Positions 9,202 through 35,205 of a stretch of 38,894 bases of DNA are shown here, piece after piece. Source of the stretch: Saccoglossus kowalevskii (taxonomy: Eukaryota; Hemichordata; Enteropneusta; Harrimaniidae). The stretch covers positions 136,613 to 175,506 of the forward strand of contig NW_003119924.1 in NCBI RefSeq assembly GCF_000003605.2, read 5' to 3'. Every line of letters begins with the position of its first letter. Position 1 is the first letter of the stretch. Position numbers and translations under genes: made by a program. The notes beneath the pieces are model-generated. The model was not told the DNA's origin and did not search any database. It was given only the letters and a program-made list of their open reading frames with translations.

Positions 9202-11289
9202 GCTTCTTAGGTAATTGTTGCTGTATGCAAAAATATTGAAATCATCGCACGCCTCAACGTCTTATCTGTTATAGTTTAGATACCATTTATTCGCTTTGTT
9301 ACAAACAGATTGAACATCTGCGATACGGTGGGTCTAAATCCTTAAACCTGTGACTTTATCGTGCGCGAGAACATTTGGAATGATTGGTTTCGCCGAAATG
9401 CGGTAAAGTTAGCGAGATTCCCCGAGCAGGCCATGAAACTGTTACAAAGTGCCCGGAAATGTATGCGTCATGTATGATACTGTTTAGAAAGGTGTCTTGT
9501 GGCAAATATTATTAAAACTAAATTCAGATGACGGTTCAACTTTCTGAACCGGGGTTTTAGACTGAGTAGAGCGCGACAAAGTAAAAATCCGGCGTCCGGA
9601 AAACGCTTGAAAATGAAAATTTTGAAATTTTGTTATTAGGCTATTAGGATTGGGGCAAGTTTAAAACTGTCGCATCTAATATAACTTTCAATCATGATGA
9701 ACATGTGTGGTCACGGGAAAGGAATTCCGTACTTAAAATATTTGTTTAGTCAAAATGGCCACTGGGTTCTTGCGTTTATTTTTTCAAAACATTGATTTAG
9801 AACCCTGAGAAAGTAGTCATTGAAACGTGATTTCCTGTCCATAGGGTTCCATACCAGGACCTATAGTTACAATTGGACACATATGTTTTATTTGTTGGCC
9901 GAGATCAGTAGATGTTTGAAACCACCACAGTGCACAAACACTCAAATTGCACTAGAAAAGTAAGGGTAGTTGAACTTCAACCTCGCATTATGTCAATAAA
10001 CTCGATGTTCGATTATTGGTATAATATTTGCGTTTGTCTCCCTATTTCCGTAAGTTGATTACTTATATAGTTTTACTCCAAAACGCAAAGTTTTCTTTTT
10101 GACAATTCCTGTATAATATGTATTTCCGTGTCTCTTCTACATTAGTTTGCGATAATGTAAACTTTAATAAAAACCAGCCTGGGTCACGGTTAAATAATTG
10201 GATGCCAGGAAAACAGTCGTCGTGTAAAAAACAAAAACAAAAAACATTTTTTTTTTACTTGCGGTGTGTTCGTCGCATGGGACCCATATGCGAGTCGATC
10301 ACGATGCGACTACTACGTAACTTTAACTAACGCCGTAAAACCGGTTCTCACTATACACCCCATAGGTGAGTTGCTCAGCGAAGCACACACAATGTAGACA
10401 ATGAAACACTGCTATAAGTTATACTCTGCGGGAAAATATATTACCATTATACATTTCTAGAACCATACTGATCATCAGTACGGTAACAGTTACCATGACT
10501 ACCTGAAATTTGAGGGTACCGCGAAATGTGTGTTTACAACTAATTTTAGACTCTTAGTAATTATGAAGTAAGGACTATATTTGGCGCAATGGTGAGATGG
10601 TGAGGTCCATTGTCTAACTTCCTGTTGACAAAGAAGCCTCTGTTAACACATCAAAATATCGCTGAAAGTGTGAGAGACAAAATTGCTCTAACAAATGAGT
10701 ACGTGACGAATTCGGGTGTATGATAACATAATATGAATAAGTATATTCTGCGGCTGCGCAATCCTTTCTCATTATACATGACCTATGAACCAAGGAAAAA
10801 GGCGACACCATTGACGGACAATCAACATCTGATGAGAGTTATAATAAAGCTGCACATTTCACCGTTAGGAGGTCGCAAAATTTAGCATTTCTTATCTACA
10901 AATATCATAGCAGTGATTGTATGCCGATTTTGTAATGATTATTTTTCACGTGCTACATTTTTCTTGACAGCGATGGTTAATAAGCTCCGCTATTAAATGT
11001 TTATAAACAGGCTTTCAGTGTTAACACAATAAATTCGACAGGTACGAGTAGTTAGCAGCCTTTATTTGAATATCCACACCTCATCGGGTAACCGTGTCGC
11101 GTGTCTAGGTACTTACATATCCAGGTTTTGTACAAATATAATTAAAGGTGTACAATGAGCTTGTAATTGTAATTTTAAGTTCAAATCTGATGACAGATTT
11201 AAACTATTAAAAGACGTTATCGGCATACGTGTTTGCCATCGTTTCAGTTTCCCCTATTTGCATTATTAAAAAAGTCCCGCAATACGCAG
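9202..11289. other. gene-poor DNA, nothing recognised
   Basis: Only short chance frames. A stem CAATGG/CCATTG at 10588-10613 has no flanking direct repeat. Two adjacent small palindromes (TACTGAT/ATCAGTA and GGTAAC/GTTACC) lie near 10465-10500. Confidence 0.5.
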
Positions 11290-13319: not shown

Positions 13320-13368
13320 GCTCGGGCACAGTCCCTCTATCCATGGGATAGAGGGGCTGTGGCTCGGG
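13320..13368. mobile_element. mini-palindrome A with 7-bp target duplication
   Basis: The 35-bp palindrome at 13327-13361 has 16-bp arms (CACAGTCCCTCTATCC, one mismatch) around a 3-base centre. It is bounded on both sides by GCTCGGG (13320-13326 and 13362-13368). The direct repeat stops exactly at 7 bp because the next outer bases differ. This is the signature of a transposition event, but the inserted DNA is only two inverted ends. Confidence 0.8.
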
Positions 13369-13463
13369 CTTAGCGCCCAAACCGCCATTGTATTCGAATG
13401 AGTCAGGAAATGTGCGTATGATCCTGCAACCATTTTCACATCAGATTCGGTCATGGTATATGC

Positions 13464-13506
13464 ACACAACCACGGTTACTACTTTTTTTAGTAACCGTGA
13501 CACAAC
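13464..13506. mobile_element. mini-palindrome B with 7-bp target duplication
   Basis: The 29-bp element at 13471-13499 has perfect 11-bp arms (CACGGTTACTA) and a 7-base loop. ACACAAC lies immediately outside each end (13464-13470, 13500-13506). The arm sequence differs from element A, but size, CA/TG ends and 7-bp duplication are the same. Confidence 0.8.
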
Positions 13507-13513
13507 ACAGTCT

Positions 13514-13555
13514 CTCTATCCATGGAGCTAAAAAAGGGGGGCTCCATGTTCTATC
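13514..13555. mobile_element. mini-palindrome C nested in a half element
   Basis: The 28-bp element at 13521-13548 has perfect 8-bp arms (CATGGAGC) and a 12-base loop. It is flanked by CTCTATC (13514-13520) and TTCTATC (13549-13555), a 7-bp duplication with one mismatch. The left flank belongs to CACAGTCTCTCTATC (13506-13520), the left arm type of elements A, D and G, so C appears to have landed in an older relative. Confidence 0.65.
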
Positions 13556-13684
13556 CCTGGTCTGGAAACGATTGGCAGTCTATTGTCCCAGGGCTGGTTG
13601 CGGGTAAATAAACCGTTCGCACCTTGGACAAGAAATAGCCACGAAGTTGAGAGTACGCTAACACAACTGCAAACAGAACTGTTA

Positions 13685-13730
13685 CCGTGATCACAGTCCC
13701 TCTATCATGATAGAGGGACTGTGCCGTGAT
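13685..13730. mobile_element. mini-palindrome D with 7-bp target duplication
   Basis: The 32-bp sequence at 13692-13723 is a perfect palindrome with no loop (arm CACAGTCCCTCTATCA). CCGTGAT lies directly on both sides (13685-13691, 13724-13730). Arms match element A almost exactly. A perfect long palindrome is normally unstable, so its survival suggests recent insertion. Confidence 0.85.
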
Positions 13731-14116
13731 TTATCAAAATACGAACATCTGAGTCCCAGGGGGGCTGTGGTTTAAGCTATCCAATAAATGAAAAACATCG
13801 ATCTTTCTAAAACACATGACCAATAAAAGGGGATAGACGATCAAGGTTGTTAGAACTGTTCCAAGTTGCGATCCTTGAAACCTCAAATTTAGGTGCGATA
13901 TTCACGAATAATAATGTCAATATGCCACTATTGAAAGACTTGCCGGCTAATGAATTGTGTTGATCTTTTAAATCTATATAAAGTATCAAAATATATAGTC
14001 CTTTTCGGTTTAAAAACTAGAATATGCAGGGAACAATGAATCGATCGATAGGTCTGCTATCAAGAGACTATGCTTCGCGGAAAGTCATACCCCGGGCTGT
14101 CCGAGCACTGAGGGTA

Positions 14117-14146
14117 ATTCACACCTTAGACAATAGCCGTTGCCAG
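14117..14146 (+). repeat. dispersed 30-bp repeat, copy 2
   Basis: Reads ATTCACACCTTAGACAATAG then CCGTTGCCAG, differing from the 12723 copy at a few positions. It is followed within 5 bp by an isolated right-hand arm of the CACAG mini-palindrome type (14151-14167). Confidence 0.6.
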
Positions 14147-14150
14147 ACCG

Positions 14151-14167
14151 GGGATAGAGGGACTGTG
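14151..14167. mobile_element. solitary right arm of a CACAG-type mini-palindrome
   Basis: GGGATAGAGGGACTGTG matches the right arm of elements A and D, but no matching left arm or flanking direct repeat was found. It is probably a half element left by deletion. Confidence 0.45.
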
Positions 14168-14665
14168 CACACAAGCGTGCCGACACCGGGGATCGGATTA
14201 AGTGGGGAAAATCATCTGGTCAGAGCAAAGACACCCAATCTATGCGGTTTCGTTTGTCATCAACCACACAAAGTGACAGTTGTATTATTACGTCATCACA
14301 GAGATGCCGACGTCCTCGTCACACCGCGTCCTGACCGACAAAAGCATCGCCTAGTCAAAATCCCCTAATGTTCTACTGATTAACTTTGAGGTGAATATAA
14401 GCAAGATAATTAATGTGATCAACAACATAAACAAGTACGTAGAGCATTATTATGAGTGTGACCTTTAAAAGAACCCAACCCCTCATTCACAAAGTGTCAA
14501 TCCCATTGTTTCAGGATAGACTCAATGGCCCCTTCATACAATTTTGAGAGAACTTCACAGTAGTCGAACTGCGCCATGTTCAATCCACGGTTAATAAAAA
14601 AAGAGTCCACAAAACTACATAACGCGTGAATGTGACACTTAGCGACGATTCAATTTAAATCGTTA

Positions 14666-14708
14666 GTTAGCCCATGGAACCATTGGGTTTATAGTTCCAT
14701 GGTTAGCC
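14666..14708. mobile_element. mini-palindrome E with 7-bp target duplication
   Basis: The 29-bp element at 14673-14701 starts CATGGAAC and ends GTTCCATG, with a 13-base loop. GTTAGCC flanks it exactly (14666-14672, 14702-14708). The arms and the inner TATA next to the right arm are shared with element F at 15814. Confidence 0.8.
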
Positions 14709-14921
14709 CATGAAGCTAAATAGCAAAATGTTCACGGGCTTACCACGGAGAAGCTAAGAGATATGTACCTGAGCATATACACATGCGCTAACCTCGGCCA
14801 TACTGCTGGCATGACACGTGTGCAGATAAAATCTCTTTTCTACCTCCATGGATGAGGTTGGTTGAGAATGCTCGCGACCGGATAACTAGAAACACAGTCC
14901 AATAAATCACTGAACTAAACA

Positions 14922-15015
14922 GCTGTGAATATTTCTTATAGTTATACTTTAATCGCATGGCTAAATTTATTTTGAATTGAGCGATACGATTAAAAGTATA
15001 AGAAATATTCACAGC
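14922..15015. repeat. 94-bp foldback sequence
   Basis: The left arm starts GCTGTGAATATTTCTTAT and runs to about 14954. The right arm, ending at 15015, is its inverse with a 3-bp indel. Arms are about 30 bp and the loop about 35 bp. No flanking direct repeat was seen, so insertion by transposition is not demonstrated. A small foldback MITE is the likeliest explanation. Confidence 0.75.
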
Positions 15016-15806
15016 CTCTTTTGACCACACAATTTGACCACTCCCGAACTTCACGCAAAGCGACTACACGCGTGCCATGTTACACATACATGTACTAGTT
15101 TACAACTGATATTGAATTGACGGTTTTATATTGCTTGCAAAGTACCCCTACTTGATATTAATTCTGAAATATATGGCCGTCGTTGGAACACGAGCATTGG
15201 AATCCAAACAGCGGAAATTGTGTTTTTAGACTAATGCTGGCCAAATACCAAAGTTGGCCGCTAAACTGTTGTTCGTCCCCTCGCAGATAACACTCAATCA
15301 GAGTGGGTTAATAATAGACAACGGACAATTAACGCGTGCTTCCACAAGTCATGGGGGTAGCATGCAAACAGGAGTAGTATTCTGTTCGTTCGTTGATAAA
15401 GTCAATATTGACTATTTTACATGCATAAAGATGTCCAATTTACTCTTCGTGTGTAATTTAAGTTTTGAAATGTAACAGTACTTTAGGCCGGTGGCCATAT
15501 AGTGCGGAATAAAGAAAATAAAAAAAAATAAAATAAAATAAAAAAAAAATACTCTTCGTACGTCGTATATAGCTCAGCGCTAACTATACACCCTATATTA
15601 ATCTAAAATTTGTCCTGCAACTTCGATACATATTACTGAATACCGTGCTGTTACAAACCTGACACCCGTGTCACATTCCGGGTAGCACTAAACCTCGAAT
15701 AACAATATATTCATTTTCTATTTCTATCTGAGTCAGAACCCACTGCTACCGTGTTCTCACTAGAACAGGTAAATTTCGCCCGGTAATTAAAATTAAGGAT
15801 TACTTA
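15016..15806. other. gene-poor DNA with A-rich tract
   Basis: The only clear feature is an A-rich stretch with AAAAT units at about 15513-15550. No supported exon. Confidence 0.5.
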
Positions 15807-15840
15807 GTCTTACCATGGAACTATAGTTCCATGGTCTTAC
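15807..15840. mobile_element. mini-palindrome F with 7-bp target duplication
   Basis: The 20-bp perfect palindrome at 15814-15833 (CATGGAACTATAGTTCCATG) is flanked by GTCTTAC on both sides (15807-15813, 15834-15840). It is element E without most of its loop, which makes it one of the smallest insertions with a target duplication one could recognise. Confidence 0.8.
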
Positions 15841-18800
15841 GTTCACATCAGTAAGACGCGTAAATATGTGCACAACCATTTATGGTACAAACTTATAGAT
15901 AGGCAATCTATTTTTGTCGTTTATGCAATCATTCAAGCATTTTTTAGGGCTTATGATTAAATCTTAACATATAGTTGACTGTGGTACTAGTACTTAAATT
16001 CGTTTTAGAGCGTGAATACACTTACAACTTGAACACCCTTGGCGAATGGTGGTCGGTGTTGCTACCGCTGTAGTTAAGCTCCTTTATGTCGTCATACCGT
16101 GCTCTCATCTATTTTTTCTCTTACATCAACGTAAGTTACGTCGGCATAAATGAATAAAAAGAACAGATGTGAATACGGCATGCGTTGTAAAAAGCGAACG
16201 AGAACTCCGTTTAGAACTGAGGTAATATCTCAAGAGTAATACTGCGTCACTCATATCGATCATCGCAGCACGCGATCCGATTATACAGTCAATTCAATCC
16301 CAATGAGCTATCTGATTACGCGTTCAAGCTACACAAACATTCATTGTCCGAGTTGCGAATAATACGCGTAATGAGTGCCGTCTATTGTTGCCGCCCGTAG
16401 GGGTGTAAACAGGCCTTAAGTAAGCATCTTTAATAATGCTTTATTTGTGTTGTAGTGGCGGTAAACCATATTGTCATCGTCGTAGAGCCATAGACTCTCA
16501 GTTGATGTTAGAACTATGGAAGAAAAGTCTATTTTTAACTCCATGGCAGAACCAGGTCACGACAGTAAAATCTGACCGCTGAAAGAACAGACTGGCAACG
16601 GTTATTGTCTTATGTGTGATTTGTCTGTAGAATTCGTTGCTGGTAGTTAATTACGACCTCAGGCCACATTACCCGAAGATTTCCGGACGTACTTTTTTGT
16701 TGCGCGAAACGCGCAGCTGCATACATGCAGCTATAACCAGAAATGAAATCTGTAAGCATCAATTTTTCGAAAGCTGTTGTTTCTGTTCAAATTGGTTTTC
16801 TCCGATTGTGTAGGTTAATTCTGGGCAAAATGACACCCATGAAACAAAGGGTCCGTATTTTGCAATGGGTCATGATAGAAGATTCAATGCATGGAAATAC
16901 ATCTAATGCTATATTTAAAAAAAAAAAGCGTGAACACAATTTTATTGTGTATGTGAAAATAATCCAACTGCCTCTCAATTGAAACGATCAAATGAAATGT
17001 TTCAAAAGTCAATTTTGCTCACTACTTGAACCTCTTTTCATTACAATCTTTATATAATAGCTAATATTTGAACTGGTGTTCAGCGTGGAAGTTAGTAATT
17101 ACGTGTCATTCGATTTTCTCAATTATCAATATTTCGAGATTCAGATTTTGTCGGTGTATGCGTATTATTCTGTTGTGTATATGAATATTGGATGCTCGAT
17201 AAGCACGCCGTAGTTTAGACTGACGGGACTATTTTTTTGTTTTGTGAAAAAATGGTGAATTTGTGTTGTTTTTAGTGTAGTCAGAAAGACCCGTTTCTTT
17301 CACGTACTGAACAGTATTCACTTCAGTCTGTTGGTGCAGCGTCGTAATCTAATACATGTAATTTAACGTGGCTGAGGGGACGAGGTATAACCAACTTACA
17401 TTTTTAAACAGCGCCATTTGTTTGTAAACTTCCAAGTTTGTGGTATTCTAACCAAGCTCATATTTTTGAACCAGTTTAGTGTGACAATCCTCCTTTTTAG
17501 ATTTTGTGACCGCCCCATCTGATGTGTCATTTTACTAATTAATTTCATAACTTAATCACTAAAATAACTTAATTCGACCGCACCAGAAAGCAGCGAATTG
17601 GTTGAGTATAACTCTATGACACCATGCAGTTAAAACATATATATATGTATATATATATACTATGAATTCCAACTACTAGTACTAACCAGTGTGGTAGGAA
17701 TTAATGAAGTCATTGCGCACAATCAACAGGTGGTCGTCGTCCATACCTGACTCACAGCTAACTACGTCGAAACTTTGTCAGTGTGGCGTTTTTAAGTGAT
17801 GATCTCTATAATATATTGTTAGTTCAAATTAAGGGATCATGTGATTGTTTAGTAAAACTAAAACCACTAAAAGATGCTCCGAACTAAAAGTTTGTCACAT
17901 GCGAAGGAAGAATCAAAACTTGCCACCAATTCTGCACCAATGCACAGGAAACAATGTATTGTCCAAAACAGCGTAATTCGTCACTGAATGTCACCTATGG
18001 ATGTTTGAATTGACTGTTGAAAACGTGTTATTTCACACTTTCAACGTTAGTAAAACACACGGTGTGTGTGCGAAATAATATAAACTAGTCATGGCAAACT
18101 TTGGACGCACAGTAACACTCATTTAATTCGTCGTGTACATGAATCTATGTTATACTTGGATTGAAAAACCAAACAAAACAAACAAACACATATTGTTATC
18201 GTTTTGTCATTTGTCGACGTCTATCTATATATCTGTACCGTTAGGTATGATATGCATGAGATGGGGTTATATAGATATGGCTTCGTTGTCCAACGAAATG
18301 TCTTTAGTAAGATGTTGAATTCATTACTAGTAGTAAGGTTATTTTGAAGTATGCTTAAAACAAATTTTCCCCAGCGAACTAGTCACAGAAAAAAACCGCA
18401 AAAACTGAAGAAATATAATATACATATAATGGTACAATTATATTTAATAACCAATCGTCTAGACATACTGTATACTGCGTGAAAATAAACCGACGACCGA
18501 AACGTCCGGCATGAAAAATGACACTGCCGGGATGTCATGCCTTCGGAGTTTTTCCCGAACACAACCACTAGGTTTGCAGACGGACTAGACTACTAGTAAG
18601 TGTTTTCATTCTTGTGGTAGCTAAAGTCAACACCGGGATATAATTTAGTGTCTTGTAATCTCCGCATGTATCCTGGTTGTGAGAGCCGGCTCTGAAAATA
18701 GTAGAGCCACTTTCACGCCAAGTGCGTATATGATGTTACGAAGTAGTAGTAAATGAACAACTTATAAACACGCCACGATGTTAATACCCAATCCTGTATT

Positions 18801-19730
18801 CTAGTTATTTTATCACTCCATCAGTTCGCGACAATTTTCTTCTCATTAACTGCGCCAGTTTTACTAATACTGTAAAGTACTTTATTGTCGCTCAAGGACC
18901 CGGATGTTGAATCAGCCTGAATATAAAATCACTTTTGTTCTCATATTTTACATATTCAACCCAAAAATAAGTGAAAATAAACTTTATGTGTCTTTTCAGC
19001 GAAAATTAATTCCAGCTAAATGAAAATTATTATAGTAATTGCGGTAATTATAGAATATTCATACTAGTCCCGTATGTATTCGACTGGAAAGACATCTGTA
19101 ACCTATGATCACGCCCTATCAATGGTTAAGCAATCAATCATTTACACAACCGTCAAAAAAGCTGAGAATACGGGCGTTTACTATGTGACAGATGCTAAAT
19201 GTGAGTTTGATAACGGTATCCTGTTGTCCATGCGTTTTTTATTAAACTGTTCAATTCACCATGACCCTGAGCAAACCTTCAGATCTCACTCTCGAATTGA
19301 ACGGCTATTGGCATTCAAGTTTATAGAAAGAGTATACCAAAAATAATCAGCTTTTACTAAAGTTGATCGATCTTTTTTATTGGTTTTTTATGTACAATCA
19401 CGTGAATATGGAATAGTCATCCCGTTGTGTGTTACGATATCGAATATCGAGAATATTTGCCAAATATTATTCAAGAAATGTCATTTCCACAGGACACAAT
19501 TACCGGTAGTAGCATTCACTCTTCACAGTTTAGAAGAGGATTGATCTTTGAAATATATATATTTTCTTTCGTCTTTGAGATCTACATAATATCTTACATG
19601 AAATAAATATATTTTGCTAGATTTGGAGAATCGTACGCCTCTCATAATTGGTTGCACTAACAAAGATTGTTGTTACCTTGTTTAAAAGCCAACACGTGTC
19701 AACGCCGGTCAGATATATTCTGTTGACCTA
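15841..19730. other. gene-poor DNA, nothing recognised
   Basis: A third copy of the dispersed 30-bp repeat lies at 16592-16621 on the minus strand. An 18-bp palindrome AGCTGCATACATGCAGCT lies at 16715-16732, and an AT dinucleotide tract at about 17638-17660. An imperfect stem-loop occurs near 18680-18715. Open frames such as 19074-19346 (90 codons) show no recognisable protein. Confidence 0.5.
16592..16621 (-). repeat. dispersed 30-bp repeat, copy 3
   Basis: On the minus strand it reads AATCACACATAAGACAATAA then CCGTTGCCAG, clearly related to the copies at 12723 and 14117. Confidence 0.55.
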
Positions 19731-19746
19731 TCCGTATCGGTATCGG

Positions 19747-20708
19747 TGGTGGCGCTGTTTCAAGGTTCACCAAATTGTCGAACGTACTGTATGGAATAAT
19801 AATAACTTTATTGTTATCGAATCTCTGTTGAGATATAGATAAAATTACAATAAAGAATAAAATCATAATAATAAAAAGTAAAAACAGAAAATTCAAAACA
19901 ACAAGACAAAAGTAAAATAAGTACATTGCATAGATGGTAATATTACAATAAAATGTTATTTATTTATTTTATTTATTTTTTCATTTATTTTTTGTTGTTG
20001 ATAGTTCTGATATGAGACAGCTGGTAAATTTATTTATTCAACCTTTGCTCTTATTTGATTGTTACGTTTATTTTATTTGTTTTTTATTCATTCATTTAAA
20101 AGAATATTCAATATTTTGTTGGTGGTGATCTATAAAGGAAAATAAAACATTACGAAATCATGGCTAGTCACTTATCCTCGGGGGCCGAGCTACGTCACAG
20201 ACGTTCCACGTTGCTAAGACGCGCACCACTGTACCATGCATTTCTATGGCTCTGTGCGCGCTGCTGTCGAACGCCGGTCGAGCCGGTGAAAGTTCGAGAA
20301 AACAACACAAACTCAACTTTGAAGTAATCCTGAACAACCAAATTTATATATGTTACACGCGTAGGGCTAATCTTGTTACACTGTTCAGGGGAGTCTCAAC
20401 AACCATCCCGAAGTACCGTTTTCTGCAAGTTTTTGGCCATTGTTTTCACCGCGAGGGTTGCCAGGCGGTGAAAATGCCCGGATGTCCGCCCCCCGAGGAT
20501 AGTCGCTAACCTGCCACTCAGCAGCAAAACAAAGATAAAACCTCAAACTACAGTATATCCTAAACATCAATAAAATAAATCAAAATAGTACATACATACA
20601 ATAAACACAACAATCGAATAAAAACATTCAAGTATTCATGTTGTATTACAACTTAAAAACGGTTGGCAGTCTGGTGAACTTTAACAATAGGCTTCGAAAC
20701 AGCGCCAC
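19747..20708. repeat. inverted GGTGGCGCTGTTTC pair enclosing about 0.95 kb
   Basis: GGTGGCGCTGTTTC occurs at about 19747-19760 and as its inverse near 20694-20708. The interval holds an AT-rich stretch rich in TTTA and AATAA units (about 19855-20110) and the MITE at 20162-20512. The pair may mark the ends of a larger element into which the MITE inserted, or be two independent repeats. Confidence 0.3.
20162..20512. mobile_element. MITE with TATCCTCGGGGG inverted ends
   Basis: The left end GGCTAGTCACTTATCCTCGG and the right end, whose inverse reads GGTTAGCGACTATCCTCGGG, form imperfect terminal inverted repeats over about 25 bp. If the element starts at TATCCTC, it is flanked by GTCACT and GTCGCT, a possible 6-bp target duplication with one mismatch. 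The interior is GC- and CpG-rich compared with its surroundings. The overlapping frame at 20246-20509 has no recognisable protein. Confidence 0.6.
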
Positions 20709-22398
20709 CAATAGTGTAATAGTTCAAATAATATCACAGCAGTCTACGATCAAACCAGGACGATATGCCGGCATACAATCTAACAAAATACATTTATTTA
20801 ATAATAATATACAATGTAGTTCATAAACAATAAAAAAAAATGTCTCCCGGTAACACAGCCTACAATTTCAGATATGGCATAATAAATGGAATATATTCAC
20901 CTTAGGAACCATTGATAAATCGTTCCGACAAAATAGCGACAAAAATGCAACCATCATTTTCTTGATGAAAGTTCATATGCTCACAGTTACTTCGACTACA
21001 ATTTAACACAAAATGAATAACATGTTGGATATTTTTGTTAATGTATCAGCGCCTACATACGCTACCATGTGACGCCCAGAGTGAACGCTGCAAACATATA
21101 TCGTTGAGGGCAGAACACATGTACATGTACTGGAAGAAAATATCATAGTTCGACCGAAACGCGATACAGACTGGAACTCGAGCCTAAGTAGAAGGCCCAC
21201 CCCCCTTAAAAAACAAAAACAAAAAACAAACATATCAATAGAGCGTCATGTCATTTTGCATGAGGGGCGAAATCTGAAACTGATCTCCAAAATTTGTTTC
21301 GGGTTGGCGACCGCCCCCTCTGTTCCCTCAGATGCCGCCGCCACTGCATGCAAAACATGATATGGTTATGAACGGGTGCAATAGTGTATAAGCACAGTCT
21401 CTCTATCTATGATATATACTGTAGAGGAACTGTGATATAAGTTACTAATATACTACACCCTCGTGAAGTTCAATATCAGTACAATTGCATGGCCACGAGT
21501 AATTACAGCACGTCAACCGCGCTTGGAGTTAGCACCGACCTCGGACAACTAAACGAATATAATAGTTCCCTTTGTACTGACCTAACGTGTCCGACTGATT
21601 CAAGATGTGTTCGCATAAATGCGTACACGTATTTCGGAGGGGGGGGGGTTGTTTCCATTGTTTGCATGACATTTACACATTGAAGATATCTCAGGACAGG
21701 TGACCTAATGCTGAATAATGAAATCATGACAAGGTACGTGAGAGATTTTGACCAATTTTTGAATTGATATTAAAGTCACTTTAAATAAATGTATACGTGG
21801 TTTAGTATATTGTTTAGGGCCTAAGTTGATATACAGTGATACAAACTAAATTAATTGGCCAAATCTCCTTTCAGAAATTGACCACAAAACTCGTCGGGGA
21901 TCTCTTGTATTACTTATATACGGGTATGCGGGCAAGTTTTGGTAAAAATTAAGTCTTGAAAGGCCAAATTCCTCAAAAATCCACCCCTTGAAACATATTT
22001 TCATGAAAACAAAAACCTTTGAAACAAATTTTCAAGAAAAAAAAAATCGTTAAAACATAGCTCTGGTTCCTGACAATTTAAAAATTGGAACACATTGACC
22101 CATGCAGAAATTACACACTTCCTGAGTGCCTTGCGTATCCGTTGGTATGTAGTTCGAACCCATCCAAGAGCGTTGCTTCTAGCACTGTCATTTTATTTTC
22201 TGAAATTAAAGGTAACGTGACTTTGTTTCTAGATGGCTAAGGTAATCAGACAAATCTTCCTAGTACCTTCGCACTCCGAGTTCGGATGCAATGTCTGCAT
22301 ATTAACCGCCACATTTTAGGACAGAAGTCCGTAACGCCCGGCTGTTCAATTTCAATATACAAGGAGCGACATGACTGGGGAGGTTTTTTTTCCATAGT
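20709..22398. other. gene-poor DNA containing one mini-palindrome
   Basis: No supported exon. It contains mini-palindrome G (21386-21441) and a run of 10 G at about 21640-21649. Confidence 0.5.
21386..21441. mobile_element. mini-palindrome G with near-exact 7-bp target duplication
   Basis: The 42-bp element at 21393-21434 starts CACAGTCTCTCTATC and ends GTAGAGGAACTGTG. It is the same arm family as A and D but more diverged. Flanks are GTATAAG (21386-21392) and ATATAAG (21435-21441), matching at 6 of 7 positions. Decay of both arms and duplication suggests an older insertion. Confidence 0.65.
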
Positions 22399-24690: not shown

Positions 24691-25647
24691 NNNNNNNNNN
24701 NNNNNNNNNNNNNNNNNNNNNNNNNNNNNNNNNNNNNNNNNNNNNNNNNNNNNNNNNNNNNNNNNNNNNNNNNNNNNNNNNNNNNNNNNNNNNNNNNNNN
24801 NNNNNNNNNNNNNNNNNNNNNNNNNNNNNNNNNNNNNNNNNNNNNNNNNNNNNNNNNNNNNNNNNNNNNNNNNNNNNNNNNNNNNNNNNNNNNNNNNNNN
24901 NNNNNNNNNNNNNNNNNNNNNNNNNNNNNNNNNNNNNNNNNNNNNNNNNNNNNNNNNNNNNNNNNNNNNNNNNNNNNNNNNNNNNNNNNNNNNNNNNNNN
25001 NNNNNNNNNNNNNNNNNNNNNNNNNNNNNNNNNNNNNNNNNNNNNNNNNNNNNNNNNNNNNNNNNNNNNNNNNNNNNNNNNNNNNNNNNNNNNNNNNNNN
25101 NNNNNNNNNNNNNNNNNNNNNNNNNNNNNNNNNNNNNNNNNNNNNNNNNNNNNNNNNNNNNNNNNNNNNNNNNNNNNNNNNNNNNNNNNNNNNNNNNNNN
25201 NNNNNNNNNNNNNNNNNNNNNNNNNNNNNNNNNNNNNNNNNNNNNNNNNNNNNNNNNNNNNNNNNNNNNNNNNNNNNNNNNNNNNNNNNNNNNNNNNNNN
25301 NNNNNNNNNNNNNNNNNNNNNNNNNNNNNNNNNNNNNNNNNNNNNNNNNNNNNNNNNNNNNNNNNNNNNNNNNNNNNNNNNNNNNNNNNNNNNNNNNNNN
25401 NNNNNNNNNNNNNNNNNNNNNNNNNNNNNNNNNNNNNNNNNNNNNNNNNNNNNNNNNNNNNNNNNNNNNNNNNNNNNNNNNNNNNNNNNNNNNNNNNNNN
25501 NNNNNNNNNNNNNNNNNNNNNNNNNNNNNNNNNNNNNNNNNNNNNNNNNNNNNNNNNNNNNNNNNNNNNNNNNNNNNNNNNNNNNNNNNNNNNNNNNNNN
25601 NNNNNNNNNNNNNNNNNNNNNNNNNNNNNNNNNNNNNNNNNNNNNNN
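24691..25647. other. assembly gap of 957 Ns
   Basis: Unsequenced. Base composition, CpG frequency and repeat content change across it. Upstream exons of the PPT1 gene could lie in it or be misplaced because of it. Confidence 1.
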
Positions 25648-26506: not shown

Positions 26507-26710
26507 TGCGCCATAAAACTTATGTGAGCAAAATAGGGCTTGTTGTTTTAGAGAAATCACTCATTGTTTTTATGGATACTGTCAGACAAGCTTGAATATC
26601 TCCTCTTAATTTGCAGTTTGTTTTTCACTTATGGTAGTTTGATATTTGCTCTGTGTGTTTTTCCTATGTACTACAATGAAAGATAATAATGCATCTACAT
26701 TTTTAATTGT

Positions 26711-27300
26711 TTATAAATTTGTATTATTTACAAATTCATATTATTTAAAATTTTTTATTATTTACAAATTCATATTATTTACAAATTCATATTATTTACA
26801 AATTCTTATTATTTACAAATTCATATTATTTCCAAATTCATATTATTTACAAATTCATATTATTTCCAAATCCTTATTATTTACAAATTTTTATTATTTC
26901 CAAATTCATATCTATTTCCAAATTCATATTATTTCCAAATTCTTATTATTTACAAATTCATTTTATTTCCAAAGTCATATTATTTACAAATTCATATTAT
27001 TTACAAATTCATATTATTTGCAAATTCATATTATTTACAAATTCATATTATTTGCAAACTCATATTATTTGCAAATTCATTTTACAAATTCATATTATTT
27101 ACAAATTCTTATTATTTACAAATTCATATTATTTACAAATTCATATACATGTGTATTTACAAATTCATATTATTTACAAATCCTTATTATTTCCAAATTC
27201 ATATTTATTTCCAAATTCATATTATTTACAAATTCATATTATTTACAAATTCATATTATTTACAAATTCATATTATTTGCAAATTCAGATTATTGGAAAT
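26711..27300. repeat. 17-bp minisatellite, about 34 copies
   Basis: Tandem units of TTATTTACAAATTCATA with variants (TTTCCAAA, TTTGCAAA, TTCTTATT). Because 17 is not a multiple of 3 and no phase of the unit contains a stop, the plus strand stays open for over 200 codons with a 17-residue period (FTNSYYLQIHIIYKFIL). This is a by-product of the repeat, not a gene. The array ends about 190 bp before the first visible PPT1 exon. Confidence 0.95.
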
Positions 27301-27492
27301 TGAAAATTATTTATAAATGCAAATTATAAATTTTAATTATTTATAACTTCAAATTGTCTTTCAAATTTAAAACAGTGGTAATTAAGACATCATAGGTACT
27401 TAAACATGTGAGCCTTTCAGGGATTATTTAGTGGTTCTGAGCTAGCCAATCCAATCGTGCTTGAATATAAACAATTACTTCTGTTCTTCCAG

Positions 27493-34139: not shown

Positions 34140-35205
34140 GAGAAACTATGACATGCGCCCAACTGGCCAACTAAGGGGTGGTTTTCACTACAGTTGGAAA
34201 TTTTAGTCGAGACACCAGTAGTGCTTCCAGGCATCCCAACTGGATGGCACACTACCAATGAGCCCAGCAGTGTACCACTCACACGCATGGAGGCTCTCAG
34301 TAGACTCGCACAGACGAAAGATTTATCTGCGCGGGCTGCCAATGTCCTGTCCAGGGTGAATAGGGGTCCTACCATCATGGTCTATGCCTCCAAGTGGCGG
34401 GCATACTTTGATTGGTGTAGTGGAAAGGAGGTTGATCCATGCCAACCCACTGTTGGCCAGGCAGGTGATTTTTTCGTACATCTGTTTGACACTGTTAGGT
34501 TTATCCCATGCAGCAATCATTGGCTATAGGTCAGCCTTGCCATTGAGAAAACTTTGGGACAAAACTAGCCGATTGTCCTATTATTAGAAGACTGTTTATC
34601 GCTTTTCATTATCAGAGGCCTAGAACTCAATCCAGGGAACCACCCTTTGAACCACTGGAATTAGCACCATTGAAATACTTGACATGAAAAACAGTCTTCC
34701 TACTAGCTCTCGCCTGGACAATCAAGCTCTACTAAAGACACAAATTGGGTTTCTTGCCAAGAACCAAATCCCAGGACACGATCCACTGCCAATATTGTCA
34801 GCCCGGTGGATCAGGAGGAGGTACTTCTATGCCCAGTTTGAGCTTTGAGTTGCTATGAGAGACATACTAGTCGAGTCGAGGCAGGGAAAGCACATGTTTA
34901 TGTGTTATGGCCAGGGTAAGCAGAACAGACCAGATTTCCATTTTTAGGTGGATCACTTTGACAGTGTTTGTCTTCCTCATCATGGTTCCACAGAGACACA
35001 AAGTATGAGTGCATGAAGTTTATGCAATCACTAACTCATAAGCTCGTGTGTCAGGTGCCCCTCGAACACATACTTAGGGCAGGCTTCTGGAGAACACAAC
35101 ATATCTTTATCAATTATTACTTAAGAGACACGCAATCCAAGGAAGGTCTTTTTAGGGTGGGTCCCATTGTTGCGGGTCAAACTTTGATTGTTGATCCAGC
35201 CTGAA
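34140..35205 (+). pseudogene. DIRS tyrosine recombinase remnant
   Basis: The linker (LWAYEKL, PNWPTKGWFSLQLEILVE) leads into the core-binding domain (LSARAANVLSRV, MVYASKWRAYFDWC). After a frameshift come GLSHAAIIGYRSALP, PPFEPLELAPLKYLT and KTVFLLALAW. Where relatives have the catalytic Arg (LALASAKRRSEL-like) this copy reads WTIKLY then a stop. The C-terminal VPLEHILRAGFWRTQH and FINYYLRD (35104-35130), carrying the nucleophile Tyr region, are well preserved. Confidence 0.8.

Follow-up and report, generated by a model that had tools for sequence, protein, structure and literature searches.

Seven short palindromes in the genome of the hemichordate Saccoglossus kowalevskii are very probably end-joined excision footprints, or scars, of cut-and-paste transposons of the P superfamily. 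They lie in a stretch of 38,894 nucleotides of contig NW_003119924.1 (assembly GCF_000003605.2), here called the window, in which positions are counted from the first letter. The palindromes are 20–42 bp long, begin with CA and end with TG. Each is abutted on both sides by a site-specific 7-bp repeat, which is exact at five of the seven sites and matches at 6 of 7 positions at the other two (Table 1). An earlier note on this DNA had reported this architecture and held that it was not accidental. All seven sites are present where it placed them, and an excess of 7-bp flanks is found both among the boundary pairs of the window and genome-wide; the reversed-pattern controls for the CACAGTC patterns gave 0. 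The arm types that it distinguished are ends of different transposon families, and the arms at 21393 are imperfect.

Such scars would form when a P-superfamily element that had inserted, duplicating 7 bp of its target, is excised again. Transposase would make a staggered break, with one strand cut flush with the target and the other inside the element, at 17 nt in the CACAGTC families or at 18 nt in the CATGGAAC family. Both duplications and two 3' tails of transposon ends, each of 17–18 nt, would be left at the donor site, where host end joining would trim, anneal or fill the tails before sealing the break. The product would be two segments of at most 17/18 nt, with filler between them and a copy of the duplication on either side. 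How the strands are cut, that the tails are 3' and how they are repaired we infer from the analogous P element of Drosophila. There, each flank keeps a 17-nt 3' tail of element sequence after transposase has cut, and P{wa} junctions consist of the duplication, up to 17 nt, microhomology or an insertion, up to 17 nt and the duplication again (PMC2895639, tables 1–3; this and the other papers are cited from the portions available).

Proposed footprints in the window

Table 1. Palindromes of the window with their proposed reading, and the transposable element that hosts two of them.
Position	Reading	Strand	Structure	Flanking 7-bp repeat
13327–13361	Scar, CACAGTC-family ends	.	16 + ATG + 16 nt, one arm mismatch	GCTCGGG 7/7
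13471–13499	Probable scar, CACGGTTACTA-ended element	.		ACACAAC 7/7
13521–13548	Probable scar, CATGGAGC-ended element	.	in terminal repeat of MITE	CTCTATC/TTCTATC 6/7
13692–13723	Scar	.	CACAGTCCCTCTATCA joined to TGATAGAGGGACTGTG, 16 + 16 nt	CCGTGAT 7/7
14673–14701	Scar, CATGGAAC family	.	one end 17 native nt (GGGTTTATAGTTCCATG), other 8 nt + filler	GTTAGCC 7/7
15814–15833	Scar	.	CATGGAAC-TATA-GTTCCATG	GTCTTAC 7/7
21393–21434	Probable scar, CACAGTC family	.	longer filler, imperfect arms	GTATAAG/ATATAAG 6/7
13506..14167	Miniature inverted-repeat transposable element (MITE), non-autonomous, CACAGTC family	+	host of the scars at 13521 and 13692	CACACAA at 13463–13469 and 14168–14174

CA...TG inverted-repeat boundary pairs of the window, with a perfect arm of at least 7 and a length of 16–80, have an exact 7-bp flank in 4 of 26 cases and an exact flank of 4, 5, 6 or 8–11 bp in none. 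The palindromes at 13327 and 21393 fall outside this count because of their arm mismatches. The window contains a run of N at 24691–25647. At 15814, both overhangs could have been joined at their self-complementary TATA, and this scar and those at 13327, 13692 and 14673 are built like the Drosophila junctions. The CACGGTTACTA and CATGGAGC types, each represented by a single copy in the window, presumably share the same origin.

The interior of the MITE at 13506..14167 has 39 further genomic matches with 74–86% identity over parts, among the candidates scored. The left CACACAA copy of its duplication is split from it by the arrival of the palindrome at 13471. The target of this palindrome spans the junction between the MITE duplication and the first base of the MITE, and thus the palindrome is younger than the MITE.

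Genome-wide occurrence and target-site duplications

The assembly searched comprises 572 Mb in 4830 contigs. Palindromes of 20–62 bp with CACAGTCCCT arms (10 nt) occur at 432 places, 264 of 20–31 bp and 168 of 32–62 bp, a total that contains a few overlapping matches (contigs C310 and C996 twice each) and the window's own copy. The reversed-pattern control gave 0. Most of the 61 places that match CACAGTCCCTCTATC-N(0-30)-GATAGAGGGACTGTG, for which the control was also 0, are included in this total. The pattern CATGGAAC-N(0-26)-GTTCCATG was found at 219 places, with a tandem satellite on contig C913 counted in, and its reversed control at 8. The units on C913 are satellite-like, with a period of ~854 bp, and each holds CATGGAACTAAAACCCATCCAATTGTAGTTCCATG or a close variant, as does a place on C47, possibly through capture of an old element or scar.

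Flanks were read at 48 of the 50 listed CACAGTCCCTCTATC places (a nested pair on C310 taken as one and the window's own copy excluded), at 20 of the 50 listed 10-nt-arm places and at 20 of the 50 listed CATGGAAC places, where five non-satellite places were passed over before the last one taken. The duplication is exactly 7 bp at 68 of these 88 loci, matches at 6 of 7 positions at 12 and is exactly 8 bp at one, and an exact duplication of 5, 6, 9 or 10 bp occurs at none. The predominance of 7 bp over other flank lengths, on which the earlier note had let its case depend, is borne out genome-wide. At the CACAGTCCCTCTATC-arm loci, the 7-bp repeat is exact in 33 of 48 cases and matches at 6 of 7 positions in 8 and at 5 of 7 in 5, with no exact repeat of 4–6 or 8–11 bp. 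The 10-nt-arm loci have 17 exact 7-bp repeats and three 6/7 matches, and none of the 20 has an exact repeat of 5, 6, 8, 9 or 10 bp. The CATGGAAC loci have 18 exact 7-bp repeats, one 6/7 match, one exact 8-bp repeat and none of 5, 6, 9 or 10 bp. With CA...TG ends and 7-bp duplications, the CACAGTC families agree with the P superfamily, in which such ends go with duplications of 7–8 bp.

A scan of 240.7 kb (the window and the fetched loci) for any CA-starting palindrome, with low-complexity flanks excluded, found an exact 7-bp flank in 38 of 376 cases, a 4-bp flank in one and flanks of 5, 6, 8, 9 or 10 bp in none, a count biased by the many loci that had been fetched for holding a palindrome. 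The scan also turned up palindromes that had not been sought, one of the CATGGAAC family in locus L001 and others in L050, L055 and L088. The symmetrised consensus of 42 duplications is RTYWRAY, and the third base beyond it is A/T; it loosely resembles the GTTNAAC of 1360. At L001 (1460–1534), L040 (~174–250) and L011 (~1490–1565), scars of one family lie inside or adjoin the palindromes of another at the same short target, as if scars or targets had been re-used. At L034 (179–233), the immediate flanks of a CACAGTC palindrome are mutual reverse complements, not direct repeats.

Longer elements and the limit of the retained ends

Longer transposons whose ends match the arms, which the earlier note had anticipated, are present in the genome. 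Five CACAGTC-ended elements were read (191, 536, 616, 914 and 1131 bp), and their 7-bp duplication is exact in three, a 6/7 match in one and a 5/7 match in one. The 18-nt end of the CATGGAAC family, CATGGAACTATAAACCCC, occurs at 138 places (72 forward, 66 reverse). Among the 100 listed, facing pairs within 1 kb are either 36 bp (3 pairs) or 446–757 bp (22 pairs) long, with none between. In the 10 that were read of the 22 listed long pairs, all 20 ends run CATGGAACTATAAACCCC-AGGAAGAACAAC, forming a 30-bp inverted repeat, and the 7-bp duplication is exact in 8 of these 10. The terminal inverted repeat is complete, at 30 bp, in the long CATGGAAC copies, whereas each of the 30 tested palindromes has at most 18 nt of it. 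In appearance, the CATGGAAC elements of 446–757 bp and the short CACAGTC elements are MITEs or derivatives shortened by deletion.

The extent of retention was assessed on the listed palindromes by counting the bases that two native ends explain when each contributes at most c nt. For the CACAGTCCCTCAAC (CAAC) type (18 palindromes, native ends taken from L087 and L089), the unexplained bases fall from 52 at c = 16 to 42 at c = 17 and stay at 42 for all larger c up to 30. For the CTATC type (51 palindromes), they number 201 at c = 16, 180 at 17, 171 at 18 and 169 from 19 on, while the fully explained palindromes rise from 11 at c = 16 to 21 at 17 and then remain at 21. For CATGGAAC (30 palindromes), 13 are fully explained at c = 17, 22 at 18 and 22 beyond, with 45, 32 and 32 bases left unexplained; the other 20 of the 50 listed places (19 on C913, one on C47) were excluded as one tandem or satellite-like sequence. 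With the limit relaxed past 17/18, 0 of the 42, 11 of the 180 and 0 of the 32 bases left over are accounted for in the three types, and no additional palindrome becomes fully explained. The 100 listed CACAGTCCCT palindromes (50 of the 264 and 50 of the 168) include 31 with trimmed or other arm types, which lie outside the CAAC and CTATC tests.

The largest joins free of filler are 17+17 (CACAGTCCCTCAACACC joined to GGTGTTGAGGGACTGTG, at two places) and 18+18 (C46, C759 and C2120). A greedy prefix count gives apparent matches of 18–20 nt on 20 of 138 sides; since the joint limit test gains almost nothing from them, most are taken to belong to filler or to the opposite arm. Scar arms are often cut back unequally and joined directly or via a short filler. 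Distinct sequences make up 80 of the 100 listed CACAGTCCCT palindromes, and asymmetry is frequent, as in 17+10 and 10+15. Blunt joins, joins with 1–4 shared bases and fillers are all present, and no excess of microhomology is claimed. On the listed palindromes, a fixed maximum of about 17 nt per end is found together with both duplications, as in P-type footprints.

A P-type transposase with homologous terminal repeats

The P-type RNase H domain (PF21787) has 13 matches on 11 contigs, the best of them on C1630 (E 3.4e-26), and none in 14 control genomes. On C1630, the transposase match lies between perfect 30-bp inverted repeats (10113–10142 and 18025–18054), which delimit an element of 7.9 kb (C1630:10113–18054). 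A domain search of this element returned PF21787 at E 1.1e-27, and a nearby frame matches the GTP-binding insertion domain (PF21788) at E 6.7e-5 and 23.7 bits, just under the cut-off of 24.8. The main frame has the P transposase 6p5a as its sole PDB match with E up to 0.01 (E 0.0048 for the whole sequence, with no single stretch passing). The 30-bp repeat is identical at 27 of 30 positions to the end of L087, at 25 of 30 to that of L089 and at 22–23 of 30 to CTATC-type ends. It is homologous, not identical, to the CACAGTC scar ends, and a P-type transposase is present in an element with such homologous ends. The earlier note had rightly seen a likeness to P-type elements in the CA/TG ends.

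The opposite strand of the C1630 element carries a convergent gene with a C2H2 finger. Relatives of this gene lie in or beside the CACAGTC-ended elements L050 (N-terminal part only), L081, L087 and L089, the last two of which have CAAC-type ends. Within the C1630 element (L101/L098/L100/L086), the C2H2-finger gene is followed by a frame of ~350 amino acids, 341 of which gave no Pfam match.

Empty sites

Nine siblings of the MITE, selected from the listed copies and aligned, all lack the palindromes at 13521 and 13692. At the 13521 site, the terminal repeat of the siblings is continuous, without the 28-bp insert. At the 13692 site, three siblings (C803, C4144 and C61) carry a single exact CCGTGAT; the other six are diverged, have lost the stretch or end early in the fetched sequence. 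A nested palindrome of 34 bp in L050, the length that 17+17 would give, is likewise missing in nine of nine siblings scanned, each of which has one ATTGTAC. From these empty sites it follows that the three nested palindromes are insertions in origin, and the retention limit suggests that most of each insert left later.

Points against and alternative explanations

Several observations weigh against P-type excision footprints. The C1630 element has no matching 7-bp duplication, its flanks being AGTGGGT and GCAATAC. A THAP domain was not found in its 610-aa frame or in the other C1630 frames scanned, and with the apparent introns another exon may hold it. No transposase was linked to the CATGGAAC family, for which the ends and flanks of long copies were read. 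Two of the 48 CACAGTCCCTCTATC loci, L033 and L034, have no duplication, and five others match at only 5 of 7 positions. The limit of 18 nt in the CATGGAAC family differs from the 17 nt of Drosophila P, and 11 bases of the CTATC palindromes are explained only with c = 18–19. Junctions recur, in that 20 of the 100 listed CACAGTCCCT palindromes repeat another and CTATC-ATA-GATAG is seen five times, as copied mini-elements would be. The motif GTNNNAC fits exactly in only one of the 42 duplications. At none of the scar sites was an allele or paralogue found that still has the intact element in place, and among 40 scored of 410 candidates no second copy of the window flanks and no second haplotype of the window was seen.

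The recurrence of some palindromes at several sites, the clean 7-bp duplications and the nested palindromes younger than their host repeats would also fit self-mobile mini-transposons, if transposase bound two abutting terminal repeats and moved a palindrome of 20–42 bp whole. The earlier note had offered both this mobilisation and the status of smallest transposon insertions, and neither is supported. Copies of a mobile unit would be expected to be clonal and to have two complete ends, whereas most listed palindromes are distinct, with ends often unequally trimmed and joined directly or by filler. The CATGGAAC palindromes also lack the inner 12 bp of the 30-bp terminal repeat, and what the palindromes keep ends at nt 17/18. 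Drosophila P itself combines 31-bp repeats with internal transposase-binding sites (PMC7776569), and self-mobile units appear very improbable here. An equally slim chance is left to arbitrary internal deletion, by inverted-repeat slippage or gap repair left unfinished, with breakpoints that lie near the ends by coincidence. Shortened CACAGTC-ended elements of 191–1131 bp do exist, and incomplete repair synthesis after P excision is on record (PMC2895639). Such deletion should have no fixed end point, yet retention ends at 17 or 18 nt, and the lengths from the 100 listed CATGGAAC ends are bimodal. The extreme internal deletion that the earlier note had proposed as its other origin is likewise not supported.

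Scars left by another superfamily (hAT, Dada, Kolobok or one not yet recognised), in some or all families, are unlikely, although less so than either of these. The CATGGAAC, CATGGAGC and CACGGTTACTA families have no linked transposase here. Dada transposons make duplications of 6–7 bp, like the 7 bp found here (no Dada protein was sought). Against this stand the terminal repeat and the shared second gene that tie the CACAGTC families to P transposase, and the CATGGAAC family also has CA/TG ends, a 7-bp duplication and a nearly equal limit. A review of P transposition describes the 17-nt stagger as unusually long, a feature that distinguishes P (PMC7776569). Chance palindromes, hairpin RNA genes or prokaryote-like REP repeats would be palindromic and repeated as well, but they would not account for site-specific 7-mers equal left and right, for the existence of empty sites or for the genome-wide excess of 7 bp over other flank lengths. 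With the low reversed-pattern controls (8 against 219 even for CATGGAAC), their probability is negligible.

Comparison with known systems and significance

Excision footprints of P{wa} in Drosophila melanogaster resemble the palindromes in keeping both duplications and up to 17 nt per end, and in having junctions that are joined directly, at short microhomologies (AT, TA) or through brief fillers, some of them templated (PMC2895639). They differ in that the P{wa} duplication is 8 bp and the events arose in the laboratory, whereas here it is 7 bp, the scars number hundreds in a reference assembly and one family keeps 18 nt. The duplication length is shared with 1360/Hoppel, which has 7-bp duplications at 274 of 279 sites (PMC3276498), and with Galileo, where it is occasionally 8 bp (PMC3276498, PMC4168063, PMC2775673). 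The palindromic target consensus of these elements, GTTNAAC for 1360 and GTANTAC for Galileo, is a further likeness (PMC3276498, PMC4168063, PMC2775673). In contrast, their terminal sequences differ, and the C1630 element has its convergent C2H2-finger second gene. Dada targets multicopy small-RNA genes (PMC3706591). The palindromes of 20–42 bp are not MITEs, as the inner portion of the terminal repeat is missing from them.

On balance, we favour the wider view that several hundred independent excisions of P-superfamily elements, each sealed by end joining, are naturally archived in this genome. The long stagger would then be general beyond Drosophila P, with its length a family trait (17 or 18 nt), and it would partly be that of a two-gene P lineage whose accessory protein, convergently encoded, has a C2H2 finger. 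If so, the scars could serve as a record of end joining in the germline, and their hundreds would provide an experiment-free measure of the cut sites of related transposases. They would also show how frequently an element departs with no copy restored, and which joined products an animal germline retains. In the papers cited here, the P cut and its repair were studied mainly on the Drosophila element. Annotators should not enter palindromes of 20–42 bp as tiny transposons on the strength of their target duplications, as these can also mark scars. Experiments have already yielded P footprints, and the natural genome-wide record with a family-specific cut length is the point of interest. Among the open-access papers listed, none describes a natural genome-wide set of P footprints in its title or the opening of its abstract; with the lists capped and most subscription papers outside, this is weak evidence of novelty.

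Other features of the window

A frame of 125 aa at 34152–34529, which has no Pfam match at E 0.01, is reminiscent of a tyrosine-recombinase (DIRS-like) fragment. The stretch at 26643–27329 probably holds no gene; it is degenerate and repetitive, and all three of the frames concerned stay open over long distances with many repeated IYKFILFTNSYYL-like words. At 14922–15015 lies a long imperfect hairpin outside the CA/TG 7-bp architecture, with arms of 35 nt and 24 nt between them.

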